Shown one piece after another: positions 29,873-60,924 of a stretch of 64,000 nucleotides of DNA. Source of the DNA: Halostella pelagica (GTDB lineage: Archaea; Halobacteriota; Halobacteria; Halobacteriales; Natronoarchaeaceae); the NCBI GenBank assembly GCA_005954745.1, contig CP040678.1, positions 1,488,001-1,552,000 on the forward strand. The letters are read 5' to 3'. The position numbers were made by a program, and so were the translations under genes. How positions within the stretch are numbered: the stretch's first letter is position 1; every line of letters begins with the position of its first letter. The notes below the pieces were generated by a model. That model saw nothing but the letters and a program-made list of their open reading frames with translations. It ran no database searches and was not told where the DNA came from.

Positions 29873-30001
29873 CGAGTGACCGGAGGGACGCCGCGGTGGT
29901 AAAGCGCTCGAAGACGAGTCGGCGGGACTGCCGCGGTCGGCGGCTTTCCTTGCGACGACGGCGTCGTACTTTGAAGGCCGTCACCGTCGTACTGTCGGCC
30001 C

Positions 30002-36507: not shown

Positions 36508-36643
36508 GACTATCGATAGCATACGCCATTCCTTAGTTGTTATCACGAGGGGGAGTTCCGACCGGTCGCACGCGTTCGAGCGACGAACGAACCGATATCT
36601 CAGCCGGATAACAGGCAGCCAGCCGCCGACTGGCGGGCCTCTG

Positions 36644-36720
36644 ACGGACTGTCGTAAGCCTATCTCCGGACAGCGACGAAACGAATAGGCGCGTACCGGT
36701 ACACAGTTACGACAGTCCGT
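36644..36720. repeat. 77-bp inverted-end element (copy A1)
   Basis: Perfect 14-bp ends: ACGGACTGTCGTAA (36644-36657) and its complement (36707-36720). The right end touches the stop of the 36722-37084 gene. It shares CGGTACACAGT (36697-36707) with copy A2 and its complement with A3. Confidence 0.7.
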
Positions 36721-36721
36721 A

Positions 36722-37084
36722 TCAGTCCGGCACGCCCGTCAGGACGTGCGCCACGTCGACCACGTTGTGCGTGTCGATGAGCGCCTCGGCGGCCGTCCGA
36801 ACGGTAACGTCGGCCTCTATCTCGACACCGTAGCAGGCGGCATACAGTTCGAGCCACTCGTTCATCGTCCGCTGGAGGCTGGCGAACTCGTCGCTGTCGA
36901 ATCGGACGGCCCGACCGCCGGTCCGGCATTCTAGATACAGCGCAACGGTCGGCCCGAACCCCTCCCGCAAGTAGGTCAGCGCTCGCTCCTCGTCGGGCGG
37001 GTTCGCCGGCGGGTCGAACGCCGCGCGGGCCCGGTCGGCCCGGTCGGACAGGTCGCGGATCCGGTCGCCGACGCTTTCGGTCAT
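36722..37084 (-). CDS. Uncharacterised protein of the Fix operon
   Basis: A 120-residue acidic protein, mostly helical, with LTYLREGFGPTVALYLECRTGGRAVRF and MNEWLELYAACYGVEIEADVTVRTAAEALIDTHN (spans about residues 45-110). No cofactor motif is clear. It overlaps FixC by ATGA and so belongs to the electron-transfer operon; it may be an assembly or partner protein. It has two unpaired-looking cysteines. I assign no function. Confidence 0.72.
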   Translation of the reverse strand: MTESVGDRIRDLSDRADRARAAFDPPANPPDEERALTYLREGFGPTVALYLECRTGGRAVRFDSDEFASLQRTMNEWLELYAACYGVEIEADVTVRTAAEALIDTHNVVDVAHVLTGVPD

Positions 37085-38739
37085 CCCTCGCGGAACTCGA
37101 CGCCTTTGCCGCCCTGTGGATGTTCCCAGTCCGTGTCGGCGACGATGGCGCAGGTGCCACACTCCACGCACGGCTGAGTGTCGAGACTCACCGCCGTCTT
37201 CTCGTCCCCGTTCGTCTTGACGGTCTCCTCCCGGTAACAGCCGCCGCCGAAGTCCTTCGCGCTCACGGGACAGGCCGACACCGCCGCGCCGCTCGCCTCC
37301 GCGGAGTTATCGAGTAGTTCGATGTGGGGGTTTCCGACGTCCGTATTGTACGTCAGGTCGCCGATGCGGTCCGCCAGGTCCGGCGTCTCTATCGTCCGCT
37401 CGGCGGTGACTCGGGTGCCCAGTTCCTCAGCGATGACCGTCGGCATGGTCACGTACGGCGTCCGCGTGTCGGGTGCCAGCATCGAGAGGAACGGCGACGA
37501 GTAGAGGTTTTCGAGGCGGTCACCCAGCACTCGGACGCCGAATCGACCGACCGCGGAGCGCAACACGCCGTCGGCGATGCTCGTGGCGAGATCGTTCTCT
37601 CCGACTGCGCTCGCCAACTCGTACCGGGTCGGGCGTAGCTTGTCCATCACGCCCTCCCGGTCGAGTTTCGTAGCGTAGCGCTCCCCGGCCAGGTCGGTGT
37701 CCCCACGCGAGCGCGCTTCGACGTACGCCTCGGCGGCGAGCGCACCCGCAGTCACCGCGTGGTTCATCCCCTTGATGATCGGTCCCTGTGCCTGCATCTG
37801 GCCGCCCGCGTCGCCGACCAGAACGAGGCGGTCCTTGTGGGGTGACTCGTGGGCGACCTTCTTCGAGTCCGGCACCAGTTTCGCCGAGTACTCCAGTTCC
37901 TCGTAGTCCTCGCCGATCCAGTCGTCCAGCAGAGGGTGCGTGAGCAGGCTGTCGAGCAGTTCGTGCGGTTCGGCCTCCTCAGCGACGAGACTGTCGAGGT
38001 GGAACACCGTTCCGACGGAGAGCGTGTCCTCGTTGGTGTAGACGAACCCGCCGCCGCGAACGCCCTCGAACAGGTCCCCCGAGAAGAGGTGTGCCGCGCC
38101 CTCGTCCGGGCCGAGGTCGAACCGCTCGTCGACGTCCGGCACGTCGACAACGGCCTTGACGCCCTGGAACCACTCGTCCGGTTCCTCCCAACTCATCAGA
38201 CCGGCGTCCCGTGCGAGTTCGGAGTTGACACCGTCCGCGGCGACGATCAGATCCGCGCGGATCGGGTCGAGTTCGTCGCAGGTGACGCCGACTATCTCCC
38301 CATTCTCCCGGAGGAGGCCGTTCACGTGGACTTCCGTCAGCAGACCGCCGCCGGTTTCGCGGGTCTTCTCGTGGACGCGGTCCGCGAGCCACGAGTCCAT
38401 CTTCCGGCGGAGGACGGCGTCGGACCACTCGGTGTCGTGCTCGTGGAGGTCGGTGATGTCGAACGTCTTCACCTTCTCTCCCGCGACGTTGTGGATGTAG
38501 TAGTCCGTGACAGGGCGCTCGGCCGCCTGCTCTCGGAACCCGGGGAACAGGTCGTCTATTGTGTACGGCGCGGACTCCTCGGCGTATATGAGGCCCCCGC
38601 TGACGTTTTTCGACCCGGCGTCGACGCCGCGTTCGAGCACTAGCGTCTCGACATCGTGTTTCGCGAGCGTCGCCGCCGCCGCGGCCCCGCCCGGCCCCGC
38701 ACCGACAACGACCGCTTCGTAATGTTCGTGATCAGTCAT
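37081..38739 (-). CDS. fixC: ETF-quinone oxidoreductase FixC with fused FixX-like tail
   Basis: A 552-residue flavoprotein. AVVVGAGPGGAAAAATLAKH is the FAD Rossmann motif; ERGVDAGSKNVSGGLIY follows, and RLVLVGDAGGQMQAQGPIIKGMNHAV is the second FAD motif. The last 100 residues carry ACPVSAKDF and PCVECGTCAI followed by HPQGGKGV, as in FixX ferredoxins, so FixX is fused. It passes electrons from EtfAB to the quinone pool at the membrane. It overlaps EtfA by 8 bases. Confidence 0.94.
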   Translation of the reverse strand: MTDHEHYEAVVVGAGPGGAAAAATLAKHDVETLVLERGVDAGSKNVSGGLIYAEESAPYTIDDLFPGFREQAAERPVTDYYIHNVAGEKVKTFDITDLHEHDTEWSDAVLRRKMDSWLADRVHEKTRETGGGLLTEVHVNGLLRENGEIVGVTCDELDPIRADLIVAADGVNSELARDAGLMSWEEPDEWFQGVKAVVDVPDVDERFDLGPDEGAAHLFSGDLFEGVRGGGFVYTNEDTLSVGTVFHLDSLVAEEAEPHELLDSLLTHPLLDDWIGEDYEELEYSAKLVPDSKKVAHESPHKDRLVLVGDAGGQMQAQGPIIKGMNHAVTAGALAAEAYVEARSRGDTDLAGERYATKLDREGVMDKLRPTRYELASAVGENDLATSIADGVLRSAVGRFGVRVLGDRLENLYSSPFLSMLAPDTRTPYVTMPTVIAEELGTRVTAERTIETPDLADRIGDLTYNTDVGNPHIELLDNSAEASGAAVSACPVSAKDFGGGCYREETVKTNGDEKTAVSLDTQPCVECGTCAIVADTDWEHPQGGKGVEFREG

Positions 38740-41375: not shown

Positions 41376-41711
<336 letters not shown>

Positions 41712-46607: not shown

Positions 46608-46648
46608 CCGCTGTCGAAGAGCGAACTCGGAGAGAAGGGACCGGTCAC

Positions 46649-46726
46649 AGGGACTGTTGTCATGCAGTTCGGCAGGTCGCCGACGCGGGGTCGGCGACCA
46701 TCGGTACACAGTGACACTGATCCCTA
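46649..46726. repeat. 78-bp inverted-end element with 10-bp hairpin (copy A2)
   Basis: On the minus strand it begins TAGGGATC directly after the idsA stop and ends in CAGTCCCT. GGTCGCCGAC/GTCGGCGACC (46675-46699) is a perfect 10-bp hairpin inside. Over the first 50 bases its minus strand matches copy A3 at 41 positions without gaps. Confidence 0.7.
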
Positions 46727-47776
46727 TCAGTGTCCCCGTTCGATGAGGTAGTCCGCTATCTGCTCCAGCAGCCGCCGGGCGTCGTTTTCGGGCAGGACCT
46801 CCAGCCGGTCTTTCCCCGTCTCGACGAGTTCCTGTGCCGTCTCTTTGGCGTAGTCGATGCTACCGGCCGCTTCGAGCGCCTCGACGGCCTCGTCGATCTC
46901 CGCTTCGGTGACGGCGTCGACATCGTCGGTCCCGACCAACGAGTCGACGTCGACGCCCTGTTTGCGGGCGTGCAGGGTGATCAGTGTCTGCTTGTTCTCG
47001 ACGAGGTCGCTCCCGCGCTGTTTGCCGAGCTGTTCGCTCGGGACCGTCAGGTCGAGAACGTCATCCTGGATCTGGAACGCCCGGCCGACGTCTAAGCCGT
47101 AGCCGTACAGGGCGTCGACGGTTTCCTCGTCGGCACCCAGCAGGATCGCCGGAAGCGCGGCGCTTGCGGCGTACAGCACGGCCGTCTTCTGTTCGACCAT
47201 CCGGAGATACTCCTCCGGAAGCACGTCCGTCCGAGTCTCGAACTCGACGTCCAGCGACTGCCCTTCGCAGATCTGCGTACAGGTGTTCGCCAGCACGTCG
47301 AGCGCCTCCACCGACCGCTCCGCCGGCGCACCGGTCTCCAGCATGATCTCGAACGCCTTCGAGTACAGCGTGTCGCCGGCGAGGATCGCCGTTTCGAGGT
47401 CGTACTCTCGGTGAACTGCGGGGACGCCGCGGCGCAGGTCGTCGTCGTCCATGATGTCGTCGTGGATCAGCGTAAACGACTGGATCACTTCCACGCTGAC
47501 CGCGGCGGACATGATGTCTATCTCCTCGCCCGAGAGGTCGGGGAACGACCGGTAATCCGCCGTCTGGTGTGCCTCCTCCGCAAGCGACTCGGCGACTGCG
47601 AGCAGGACCGTCGGCCGGAGGCGCTTCCCGCCGGCATCGAGGAGATACCGAGAGGCTTCGTACAGACGTTCCGGTTCCGCTATCGGCAGCGACTCCGAGA
47701 TGGCTTCGTTGACCGTTTCGCGCCGCTCGGCGACCGCCGACAGCACCGTCTCTTCGCGCGCCTCGGGACTCGTCAT
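46727..47776 (-). CDS. idsA: Geranylgeranyl/farnesyl diphosphate synthase
   Basis: A 349-residue trans-prenyl synthase. LDAGGKRLRPTVLLAVAESL starts the fold, LIHDDIMDDDDLRRG is the first Asp-rich motif, and FQIQDDVLDLTVPSEQLGKQRGSDL the second. It condenses IPP with allylic diphosphates to C15-C25 chains for archaeal ether lipids. The residues ahead of the first motif that set chain length cannot be read reliably. Four bases after the RNase J stop, same operon as mvk-ipk. Confidence 0.95.
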   Translation of the reverse strand: MTSPEAREETVLSAVAERRETVNEAISESLPIAEPERLYEASRYLLDAGGKRLRPTVLLAVAESLAEEAHQTADYRSFPDLSGEEIDIMSAAVSVEVIQSFTLIHDDIMDDDDLRRGVPAVHREYDLETAILAGDTLYSKAFEIMLETGAPAERSVEALDVLANTCTQICEGQSLDVEFETRTDVLPEEYLRMVEQKTAVLYAASAALPAILLGADEETVDALYGYGLDVGRAFQIQDDVLDLTVPSEQLGKQRGSDLVENKQTLITLHARKQGVDVDSLVGTDDVDAVTEAEIDEAVEALEAAGSIDYAKETAQELVETGKDRLEVLPENDARRLLEQIADYLIERGH

Positions 47777-47779
47777 TAC

Positions 47780-49126
47780 TTATTCGACCAGTTGGATCAG
47801 ATTGCCGTTTCGAGTGACGTGCAGGTCGCGGCCCATCTTGTACCCCTCGCTCTCGCAGAGGTTGACGTACGACGAGTAGCCGCTCATGTCCTGGTGCGCC
47901 GGGATGACGTTCTGGGGCTGGAGTGCGTCCAGCATCTCGTAGTGGCCCTCCTGGTTCAGGTGGCCGGAGACGTGGATGTCGTCGTAGATGCGCGCGCCCT
48001 GCATGCGAAGGAGACGCTCGGACTGGTAGCGCTGGCCCTCGTTCGTCGGCTCCGGGATGACCCGTGCCGAGAAGACGACTTTGTCGCCGTCTTCCAGTTC
48101 GTACGGCGTCTCGCCGCGGCCCATACGCGTGAGCATCGCGCGGGGTTCGCCCTGGTGTCCCGTCACGACGGGGAGGTAATCCTCCTTGCCCTCCTTCATG
48201 ATCCGCTTGAACGTGCGGTCGACTGACTTGCGGTGGCCGAACATCCCCAGGTCCTCGGGGAAGTCGACGAAGTCGAGTCGCTCGGCCGTACCGGAGTACT
48301 TCTCCATCGAGCGGCCCAGAAGCACCGGCTGACGGCCGATGTCCTTGGCGAACTCGACGAGACTGCGGACGCGCGCGATGTGACTGGAGAACGTCGTCGC
48401 GACGATACCGCCGTCGTAGTCCTCCATCGAGTACAGCGCGTCCTTCAGGTGACGCCGCGCGACGGATTCGCTCGGCGTCCGGCCTTTCTTGTTGGCGTTG
48501 GTACAGTCCTCGATGTAACAGAGGACGCCCTCGCCCTCGCGGCCGATCTCTCGGAACCGCTTCATGTCGATGGGGTCGCCGATGACCGGCGTGTGGTCCA
48601 TCCGCTTGTCGAGGCCGTACACGATAGCGCCCTCGGGCGTGTGCAGAACCGGGTTGATCGCGTCGATGATCGAGTGAGTGACGTTGACGAACTCGAGTTC
48701 GTTCCGCTCACCGATAGACATCATCTCGCCCGCTTCCATCTTCACGAGGTTGTTCTCGACGCCGAACTTCTGCTCGCTCTCTATCTGCTGTTTCACCAGT
48801 TCGATAGTAAAGGGCGTCGCGACGATAGGCGCGTTGTAGCGGTGGGCGAGTTTGCTGATCGCACCGATGTGGTCGAGGTGACCGTGGGTCGGCACGATGG
48901 CTTTCACGTCGCCTTCGAGTTCGCTCATCACCCGGTCGTCGGGGATAGCGCCCATGTCGATCAGGTCGAGGCTGTGCATCTTCTCGGTCTCGACGTTGTC
49001 GTGGATGAGAACCTGCGAGAGGTTCAGACCCATGTCGAAGATGACAACGTCGTCACCCGCGCGAACGGCCGTCATCTGCCGGCCGACTTCTTCGTAACCG
49101 CCGATGGTTGCAATTTCGATTTCCAT
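47780..49126 (-). CDS. rnj: Archaeal RNase J
   Basis: A 448-residue metallo-beta-lactamase ribonuclease. [16 protein letters not shown] holds HxHx[18 protein letters not shown] and [15 protein letters not shown] bind the metals, and [26 protein letters not shown] is motif of the beta-CASP part (residues about 385-420). It is a 5'-3' exonuclease in mRNA decay. Start 49126 ([10 protein letters not shown]) matches family length; the frame upstream is not conserved. Confidence 0.94.
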
Positions 49127-49510
49127 TGTTTGATCCGAGCATCGAAAGCCACGGTGGGTGGCGATGTCGCTCACTGAAACCCCCGCGGGGTGTGGATACG
49201 TCGACCCCGGCGTCTTACAGCACGTCGGCCACGCACCCGCTATGCACGACGGTCTGTACAGTCGTGCACTTGCCCGCGGGTTTCCGTTACTCGTTCCTAC
49301 ACACCCTGCTCTTAAAAACTGCGTGGGTTAGGCGATGGATGTACGTTTCCACCATCGTACGACCTGACGTTCCCGAATACGGTCGTTTCGAATTCGTGAT
49401 AGAGCAATATGCGCTCGCACAACGTTCTACGAGGAAAACGACATGGAGACGTGGGACACGTACTGAAACGCAAACGCTGAGCCGGTCTCGGGGGGTCTTT
49501 CGGCCCTATC
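49127..49510. other. Gap upstream of RNase J with a leader hairpin
   Basis: No gene is seen. A TTTTTAAG-like TATA element on the minus strand (near 49311-49318) predicts a leader of about 165 nt for RNase J. It contains TGCACGAC/GTCGTGCA (49243-49268), an 8-bp stem with a 10-nt loop. The rest holds nothing clear. Confidence 0.4.
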
Positions 49511-56893: not shown

Positions 56894-56978
56894 TGCAGGG
56901 AGCAGGATTTGAACCTGCGGACTCCTACGAGACAGCGCCCTGAACGCTGCGCCGTTGGCCTGACTTGGCTATCCCTGC
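56894..56978 (-). tRNA. tRNA-Leu (anticodon CAG)
   Basis: An 85-nt type II tRNA. The acceptor stem GCAGGGA pairs with TCCCTGC, the anticodon loop is TTCAGGG (anticodon CAG) on a CAGCG/CGCTG stem, a long variable arm follows, and the T arm is GCAGG-TTCAAAT-CCTGC. CCA is not encoded. It sits between RpoD and L18e and is probably cut from their transcript. Confidence 0.93.
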
Positions 56979-59453: not shown

Positions 59454-59538
59454 CGTCGTGGCGGGGATTTGAACCCCGGAGGCTTGACGCCACAGAGTTA
59501 GCAACCCTGCGCCTTGGGCCAGGCTAGGCTACCACGAC
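59454..59538 (-). tRNA. tRNA-Ser (anticodon GCT)
   Basis: An 85-nt type II tRNA. GTCGTGG pairs with CCACGAC, discriminator G (serine identity), anticodon loop TTGCTAA (anticodon GCT) on a CAGGG/CTCTG stem, long variable arm, T arm CGGGG-TTCAAAT-CCCCG. CCA is not encoded. It leads the S13 operon, 97 bases before S13. Confidence 0.93.
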
Positions 59539-59889
59539 TCGCTGTTCTATCTCCGCCCTCTCGGACTCGGGGCCCGATACCCCTACATCGTATTGCGTTC
59601 AATTCTACTCCCTCTCGGGTACTTAAGCGTCACGAAAGTATCGGGAACCGTGACGGTGCGACAAACCGGTGCCGGTCGCGCAGCGAACGGTCCAGCGAGC
59701 CGTCAGACGCTCGCTACTCCCTCGAATGACCCGGACAGTCTCTCGTGTGGAAGCGTAGCTCCGCTCGCAGTTGCGACAGGGTGTGCTCGTTCGGCACCCC
59801 GAAACGCGACCTTCGTAGGGATCGTTGGAACTGTGTACCGGTGTTCGCCGTCCCCGCGTCGACAAGCTACTGTATCTCGACAGTCCCTC
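59539..59889. other. Gap upstream of the tRNA-Ser/S13 operon
   Basis: No gene is seen. It holds a minus-strand TATA element CTTAAGT (59621-59627), predicting transcription from near 59598 into tRNA-Ser, and the A3 repeat at its right end. The rest shows no clear signal. Confidence 0.5.
59816..59889. repeat. 74-bp inverted-end element (copy A3)
   Basis: It begins TAGGGATC (59816-59823), carries ACTGTGTACCG (59830-59840), and ends CGACAGTCCCTCT abutting the moaA stop. It matches copy A2 (opposite strand) at 41 of the first 50 positions, and it lies the other way round relative to its gene. Confidence 0.7.
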
Positions 59890-60924
59890 TCAGGCCCCGA
59901 TGTACTCCTCGTTGATCTCCCACTCGCCGTCGTCGTTTTTGATCATGTACTCGCCGTAGTACGGCACGCGGTTGTCGACGGTTTCGCGGAACGTCTCGCG
60001 GATCTCGGGTTTTTCCATCTCGCCCATCGAGCGCAGGTCGTCGTTGCGGTTGAGACACCCTTTGAGATATCCTTCGTGCGTGACGCGCACGCGGTGACAG
60101 TTCGCGCAGAAGTCAGCGTTTTCGACGGGGTCGACGATCTCGACCATACCGCGTCCCGCGTTGGGGTCGTCTCTGGTCGCGTGATCGCCGTTTTCTGACG
60201 TGTCGGCGGGGTCCGACCCGTCTTCGCCGCCGATCCAGTAACGCCGTCTGCCGTGCATCTCGCGGCGCTCGATCTCGTCGGCCTGTTCCTCTAGCCAGCC
60301 GTGGACGCGTTCGATGTCGATGTTCCACTCGGGGCGGCCGGTGAGTTCGGGCATGTACTCGATTAACTGCAACTGGAGACCGTCGTTCTCGGCGACGTGG
60401 TCGACCATCTCGGGCACGTAGCCCGCGGTGTGTTCGAACACGACCATGTTGAGTTTGACGGGGTCGAGACCGGCGTCGAGGGCCGCCTCGACGCCTTCAA
60501 GCACCTGTTCGTACGCGCCGCTTTTGGTCACCTCGGCGAAGTCGTCGGGGTCGAGCGCGTCCTGCGAGACGTTGACGCGTTCGAGGCCGGCGTCGACGAG
60601 GTCCGGCGCTCGGCCGGGGAGGAAGGTGCCGTTGGTCGTCATCGACACCTCCATCTCGTCGGGGGTCCGGCGGATGATCTCTTCGAGGTCCTGGCGAAGC
60701 ATCGGTTCGCCGCCCGTAAACTTCACTGAGTCGACGTCGAACTCGGCGGCAACCTCCAGAAAGCGGACGACTTCGTCGGCCGTCATCTCGTCGTCTTGCG
60801 GATCCATCGGACCGCGCGTATCGCCCAGACCCTCGTTGTGGCAGTAGACGCAGTCGAAGTTACACCGGTCGGTCAACGACACCCGCACACCCGACACCTC
60901 CCGACCGAACTCGTCCGCGAGCAT
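59890..60924 (-). CDS. moaA: GTP 3',8-cyclase MoaA
   Basis: A 344-residue radical-SAM enzyme of molybdopterin synthesis. [15 protein letters not shown] holds CX3CX2[17 protein letters not shown] binds [23 protein letters not shown] is the C-terminal Fe-S cluster. The C terminus is YIGA, not the usual GG. An insert of about 30 acidic residues lies before the last cluster. It would supply Moco for the 3441 oxidoreductase. Confidence 0.94.

Follow-up and report, generated by a model that had tools for sequence, protein, structure and literature searches.

A haloarchaeal family of short hairpin elements flanked by direct TGA repeats and enriched at stop codons

Elements A1, A2 and A3 of the window (the whole stretch of 64,000 nucleotides analysed here) belong to a family of haloarchaeal hairpin elements with inverted ends, which are flanked by a direct repeat of TGA and enriched at stop codons. 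This direct repeat is a 3-bp target-site duplication. The family is probably a non-autonomous, MITE-like element of haloarchaea that targets C-TGA and whose insertions into stop codons are silent. The preliminary description of three elements was confirmed as real and proved understated, the direct 3-bp repeat that includes the stop codon having been overlooked there.

Elements of the window

The three elements were found where they had been described, with the exact cores listed in Table 1, and were the only members of the family in the window. Each abuts the stop of its gene: on the plus strand, a TCA directly follows every core and is the complement of the TGA that ends an ORF on the minus strand. 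The perfect 14-bp inverted ends of A1 and the perfect 10-bp internal hairpin of A2 were also recovered as described, and A3 is indeed inverted relative to its gene when compared with A2, its stop lying at the other end of the model. The direct 3-bp repeat around the core is exact in A2 (TCA/TCA) and decayed in A1 (TCT/TCA) and A3 (TCG/TCA).

A common core word, ACTGTGTACCG, had been announced for the three elements and was found in all of them, above chance in both window and genome. Allowing at most one mismatch, it displayed four matches in the window for 0.78 expected, and none of 100 shuffles reached four; genome-wide, it gave 16 exact matches versus none for the reversed-pattern control.

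Rfam models detected nothing but tRNAs between window positions 30000 and 64000. Two minus-strand tRNA genes are located near A3 (window 59454-59538 and 56894-56978). Two other stretches of the window are repeated elsewhere. The first (41386-41705, 320 bp) is 93% identical to a repeat in its own genome (C1:54841-55160) and 87-89% identical to sequences in all congeners. The second (47803-49127, 1.3 kb) shares 84% identity with positions 211898-213219 of the genome's own contig C2 and likely reflects a paralogous gene on a secondary replicon.

Table 1. Hairpin elements of the window, their target-site repeats, adjacent genes and inner boxes
Feature	Position in window	Strand	Remarks
A1 core, 79 bp	36643..36721	-	sequence read; perfect 14-bp inverted ends; R1 match G000:C1:1524639-1524725, 66.8 bits; fold z -4.8
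TGA stop of the 149-aa ORF, gene-side target-site repeat of A1	36722..36724	-	other copy decayed, TCT 36640-36642
Hypothetical 149-aa ORF	36722..37171	-	ends in the TGA flanking A1
Inner box of A1, ACTGTGTACCG	36697..36707	-	
Distal TCA/TGA copy of the A2 target-site duplication	46645..46647	.	
A2 core, 79 bp	46648..46726	-	sequence read; 10-bp inner hairpin; R1 match 81.7 bits; fold z -4.6
idsA stop TGA, gene-side copy of the A2 duplication	46727..46729	-	same TGA in congeners without A2
idsA-like prenyltransferase gene, 349 aa	46727..47776	-	ends in the A2 duplication
Inner box of A2, ACTGTGTACCG	46702..46712	-	
A3 core, 74 bp, decayed	59816..59889	+	sequence read; R1 match 75.2 bits; no significant fold
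moaA stop TGA, gene-side target repeat of A3	59890..59892	-	distal copy decayed to TCG, 59813-59815
moaA-like gene, 344 aa	59890..60924	-	ends in the TGA flanking A3
Inner box of A3, ACTGTGTACCG	59830..59840	+	

Structure of the elements

The family unit is 79-80 bp long and is composed of TASGGACTGYTGTA tips, two distinct inner boxes and a hairpin. The 87-bp consensus of the aligned copies, borders included, reads CTGATAGGGACTGTTGTAACTGTGTACCGGTATTCGCCGACCCCGTGTCGGCGAAxTACCGAACTGACTTACAACAGTCCCTATCAG. Together, TASGGACTGYTGTA and the adjacent inner box form imperfect terminal inverted repeats of ~26 bp. Box A, which is ACTGTTTACCG-like, lies at one end and box B, which is AGTCATTTCCG-like, at the other; the two boxes, placed between the tips and the middle, resemble each other without being complementary, with ACTGTGTACCG on one side and AGTCAGTTCGG, read inward, on the opposite side. 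The middle of the element forms a second hairpin inside the inverted-repeat tips.

A1, A2 and three intact relatives each fold over their whole length into a single long hairpin. Compared with shuffled sequences, A1 and A2 both folded far better (Table 1), while the decayed A3 did not (z +1.1). Among 44 diverse elements, 93.5% of cells were paired in the 14-bp tips and 90% in the two helices. The same alignment displayed 137 double-changed cells, whereas shuffles gave 51 and slid versions no more than 62, and nine of the 12 inner pairs included double changes. These double changes are compensatory, and the hairpin is therefore kept while its sequence turns over; the hairpin sequence differed between genera with pairing retained. 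Such upkeep would be expected if a hairpin or cruciform is required by the transposase or during replication, or else if an RNA hairpin matters, and the data fit either.

Copy number and target sites in the host genome

A blastn-type search with the consensus of the ACTGTGTACCG matches located at least ~41 distinct places. A first covariance model (R1), built from 31 copies, raised this to ~81 distinct places on three of the four contigs of the 3.94-Mb genome, with E-values down to 1e-30. Copies were found in both orientations, and the flanking genes that were checked were ordinary genes.

The 3-mers immediately outside the tips were identical as direct repeats in 34 of 81 copies and as inverted repeats in none, while control windows shifted by one to eight bases gave only zero to three direct matches. 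This ruled out that the outermost TGA is part of the inverted tip. All but one of the exact direct 3-mers (33/34) were TGA/TCA, one TCG pair being among the rare others. Whether the repeat read TGA or TCA was independent of the orientation of the asymmetric core, as a target-site duplication predicts. A C preceded the TGA at 29 of 33 sites in this genome and at 36 of 44 in a second one. TGA repeats were also encountered in other genera (40/51 and 33/42 copies).

Genes were called with a home-made codon-usage caller trained on genome DNA, except for the plasmid copies annotated by NCBI. In 44 of the 81 copies, the TGA of a called gene coincided exactly with one border repeat; the other 37 were not at a called stop. 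Stops carrying an element comprised 49 TGA, three TAA and two TAG, versus 128, 72 and 62 elsewhere. In element-free spacers, 25% of the TGA/TCA sites were stops when the spacer was convergent and 11% when it was tandem, the corresponding values for CTGA being 38% and 18%. Elements were located at stops in 19 of 29 cases in convergent spacers and in 21 of 41 in tandem spacers, an enrichment over nearby TGA (p = 6e-6 and 2e-10, respectively) as well as over CTGA (p = 0.002 and 1e-6). Divergent spacers contained only four of 74 elements although they represented 39 of 161 spacers. The stop bias is therefore due partly to target sequence and partly to promoter avoidance, and partly goes beyond both. 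The copies were thus neither few nor placed at random with respect to stops, and the earlier suggestion of a mobile MITE favouring gene ends, or tolerated there, was supported, with a gene's TGA lying at one exact base of the tip in the 44 copies mentioned above.

Orthologous sites in related genomes

A2 and A3 were absent from all four congeners in a 20-kb syntenic comparison. In the three congeners with readable sequence, which lack A2, idsA ends at the same TGA, and the end of moaA in readable congeners is displaced by at most one codon. A further gene carries an element at its TGA stop in genome G001 and displays the same TGA without element in the host genome. Mobility, as first proposed, is supported by this absence from orthologous sites, by the TGA target duplications and by lineage-specific near-identical copies.

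The same stop, that of a TYW1-like radical-SAM gene, is occupied by an element in two congeners (L127:1501-1584 and L095, about 2032-2114), within conserved flanks. Box order is reversed between these two elements and their cores share only about half of their positions, suggesting two independent insertions, although replacement or extreme divergence might also account for this pattern. Base-exact empty sites were recovered neither in the host genus nor in Halorhabdus comparisons because the spacers of congeners are too diverged, and no second plasmid with the same locus was found.

Distribution in other haloarchaea

The pattern TSATASGGACTGYTGTA, which combines target-site duplication and tip, matched 53 of 392 genomes, representing 23 of 95 genera of the order, while the control gave nothing. 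Bacterial records that surfaced in the search for named hosts were chance matches of a short pattern, and viral contigs yielded four chance matches and no full element. A second covariance model, built from the 44 diverse elements and used with a cut-off of E <= 1e-5, gave family members in 31 of the 98 genomes sampled from the order and in 17 of their 42 genera, several genomes carrying at least ~47 copies. Hosts included Natrialba taiwanensis, N. aegyptia, Halorientalis salina, Halorhabdus amylolytica, Natronorubrum, Natronococcus, Natronolimnohabitans, Halobiforma and Halapricum, as well as plasmids of Natrinema and Halomontanus.

About 60% of the copies in other genera were located at stops (31/51; 35/56). 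One high-copy genome, G388, displayed 133 exact tips; 59 of the 71 copies read there were at stops, as were 43 of the 49 with exact TGA repeats. Near-identical copies occurred in both G388 and Halorhabdus. In Halorhabdus amylolytica, five of six such copies were off stops, so the stop bias is not universal. For plasmid copies annotated by NCBI, the CDS end coincided with the border TGA in five of eight records, the genes concerned encoding a PHP-domain protein, a PhzF-family protein, a cation:proton antiporter, tpiA and an FAD-dependent oxidoreductase.

Two other repeats were encountered. A divergent subfamily copy with ends TACGGATTATTGT...ACAATAATCCGTA and flanking TCA repeats lies just upstream of the element at 951 of L198 (Halorhabdus amylolytica). 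A different repeat of ~85 bp (L441:1310-1394, Natrialba magadii pNMAG01) is present at ~18 places on two N. magadii plasmids; it forms a long palindrome with TATAGTA...TACTATA ends, its CTGCAAGTCAC box resembles the CTGTAAGTCAT box of the hairpin family, and it is perhaps a sister family.

Search for a transposase partner

Ends of the element type were found at none of the 30 DDE_Tnp_1 loci read in four genomes, a part of the matches there. Tip pairs 1-3 kb apart in G388 revealed no autonomous element among the matches listed; the candidate pairs at 1.3 and 2.5 kb each consisted of two separate small elements. One-ended matches in congeners, considered as another candidate partner, likewise proved to be small elements. 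Members of family IS5, in IS1031-like groups, generate 3-bp TNA duplications. Such a duplication would match TGA and TAA, which offers a lead only, the loci examined including no IS with the ends of the hairpin family.

Proposed insertion mechanism and alternative explanations

A transposase supplied in trans would act on the inverted ends and cut a C-TGA(G) target with a 3-bp stagger. An element landing in a stop codon would duplicate the TGA, so that the frame would end at the same codon and the insertion would be silent for the protein. Insertions within genes or near promoters would be purged; target sequence, regeneration of the stop and purifying selection would then jointly place most copies at gene ends. 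The additional, ~2- to 3-fold preference for stops over CTGA availability may stem from a more extended target context, or from some benefit or tolerance that is peculiar to gene ends.

A possible though rather doubtful alternative is that the transposition system is guided to stops as such by a gene-end signal, its insertions being silent by design; the machinery might recognise stops or transcript 3' ends, for example through a longer DNA context or through transcription or translation termination. Among G388 copies at most 6% away from their subfamily consensus, 19 of 23 were already at stops, and one G388 copy displayed a TAA/TAA duplication exactly at a TAA stop. The excess over CTGA sites of the same spacers points in the same direction: in G388, with the occupied site included in the pool, 59 of 67 copies were at stops versus 27% of TGA and 53% of CTGA sites (p = 6e-26 and 9e-10, respectively). 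If the machinery targets stops as such, the TYW1 stop in the two congeners would be one that was apparently hit twice independently. However, the target logo contained only C-TGA-(G) and ordinary codon bias, many TGA duplications were found at non-stop sites, and a CTGAG target by itself yields about half stops, although these numbers are small.

It is less likely still that the family is a domesticated 3'-end element, that is, an mRNA terminator or a stability or ribosome-stalling hairpin behind the stop, kept by positive selection. A stable hairpin starting directly after the stop, pairing conserved by compensation across genera and a stop excess above CTGA availability would all suit such a role, and REP hairpins located at most 15 nt from a stop in E. 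coli were reported to cause ribosome stalling and reduced expression (PMC12306157). Yet both orientations are represented among the copies, 37 of the 81 are off called stops, the fold of A3 is lost, the young Halorhabdus amylolytica copies are mostly off stops, and orthologous genes of congeners do without copies. Nor was a conserved T-run, the T-tract of intrinsic terminators, evident in or behind the aligned copies. The terminator or 3'-UTR element that the preliminary description had offered as its second option was consequently not supported. An effect of the copies on the expression of their host genes is nevertheless plausible by analogy, because E. coli REP hairpins near stops reduce expression.

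Integration through a site-specific recombinase whose crossover core is TGA, in place of a DDE transposase, is improbable. It would explain a border trinucleotide that is almost invariant, which is unusual for a duplication, but rare other trinucleotides exist (TAA, one TCG pair), conserved arms are lacking outside the TGA, and no such enzyme was identified. Even less credit can be given to an element carrying its own terminal TGAs and supplying a new stop instead of duplicating the resident one. Both borders are TGA in most copies, as such an element would require; these TGAs nonetheless form a direct repeat while the tips are inverted, they are oriented like the target and not like the element, and idsA as well as a second gene end at the same TGA with and without element, to which the TAA/TAA case must be added. 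Chance resemblance of unrelated hairpins, for which the much decayed A3 might plead, is practically excluded and was already refuted by the 16 exact matches versus none in the control and by the ~81 model matches.

If the MITE-like reading holds, a mobile element can reach more than 100 copies harmlessly by landing on a codon whose meaning is restored by its 3-bp duplication. A strong hairpin right behind the stops of many haloarchaeal genes is expected to have a bearing on annotation, operon structure and mRNA 3' ends. The family also makes it possible to test in culturable haloarchaea whether a transposon can sense the end of a gene, and it points to a transposase yet to be found.

Relationship to known elements

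The absence of a named family with this consensus, as first stated, fits the literature searches. Tip sequences gave only chance occurrences there, mostly in primers or unrelated sequences. A description of a stop-codon-targeting MITE was not found either; a name may exist, most of the subscription literature and ISfinder being outside the search.

REP/BIME elements, which are associated with RAYT transposases, are likewise small palindromes located after stops and enriched between convergent genes. However, REPs are units of 20-40 bp without target duplication, and identity with them is ruled out by the 80-bp unit and the 3-bp TGA duplication of the hairpin family. The GTAG/CGTC tags that mark large REP super-families (PMC3733652) were not seen in the hairpin family.

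The small mobile repeats (SMRs) of Haloquadratum walsbyi are 80-110 bp long with prominent inverted ends, many copies and no known transposon with matching ends (PMC3119063), and thus resemble the hairpin family in all of these respects. SMRs target other mobile elements, IS605-type elements or PATEs, and generate no target duplication (PMC3119063), whereas the hairpin family is located at gene ends and flanked by a duplicated TGA. The hairpin family therefore falls outside the SMRs of Haloquadratum, which lack such a duplication.

The family displayed the terminal inverted repeats, the target-site duplication and the many dispersed, short and non-coding copies that define MITEs. It is best read as MITE-like, all tested features matching save that a partner transposon was not found and an exact empty site was not recovered. 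MITE families of Haloquadratum and QMITE2 of Coxiella are similarly short and non-coding, with inverted ends, a direct target duplication and many dispersed copies in spacers, and QMITE2 is found mainly in 3' untranslated regions (PMC10969869). In contrast to these, the duplication of the hairpin family is an almost fixed TGA that coincides to the base with stop codons, and its inner hairpin sequence is swapped between genera while pairing is kept.
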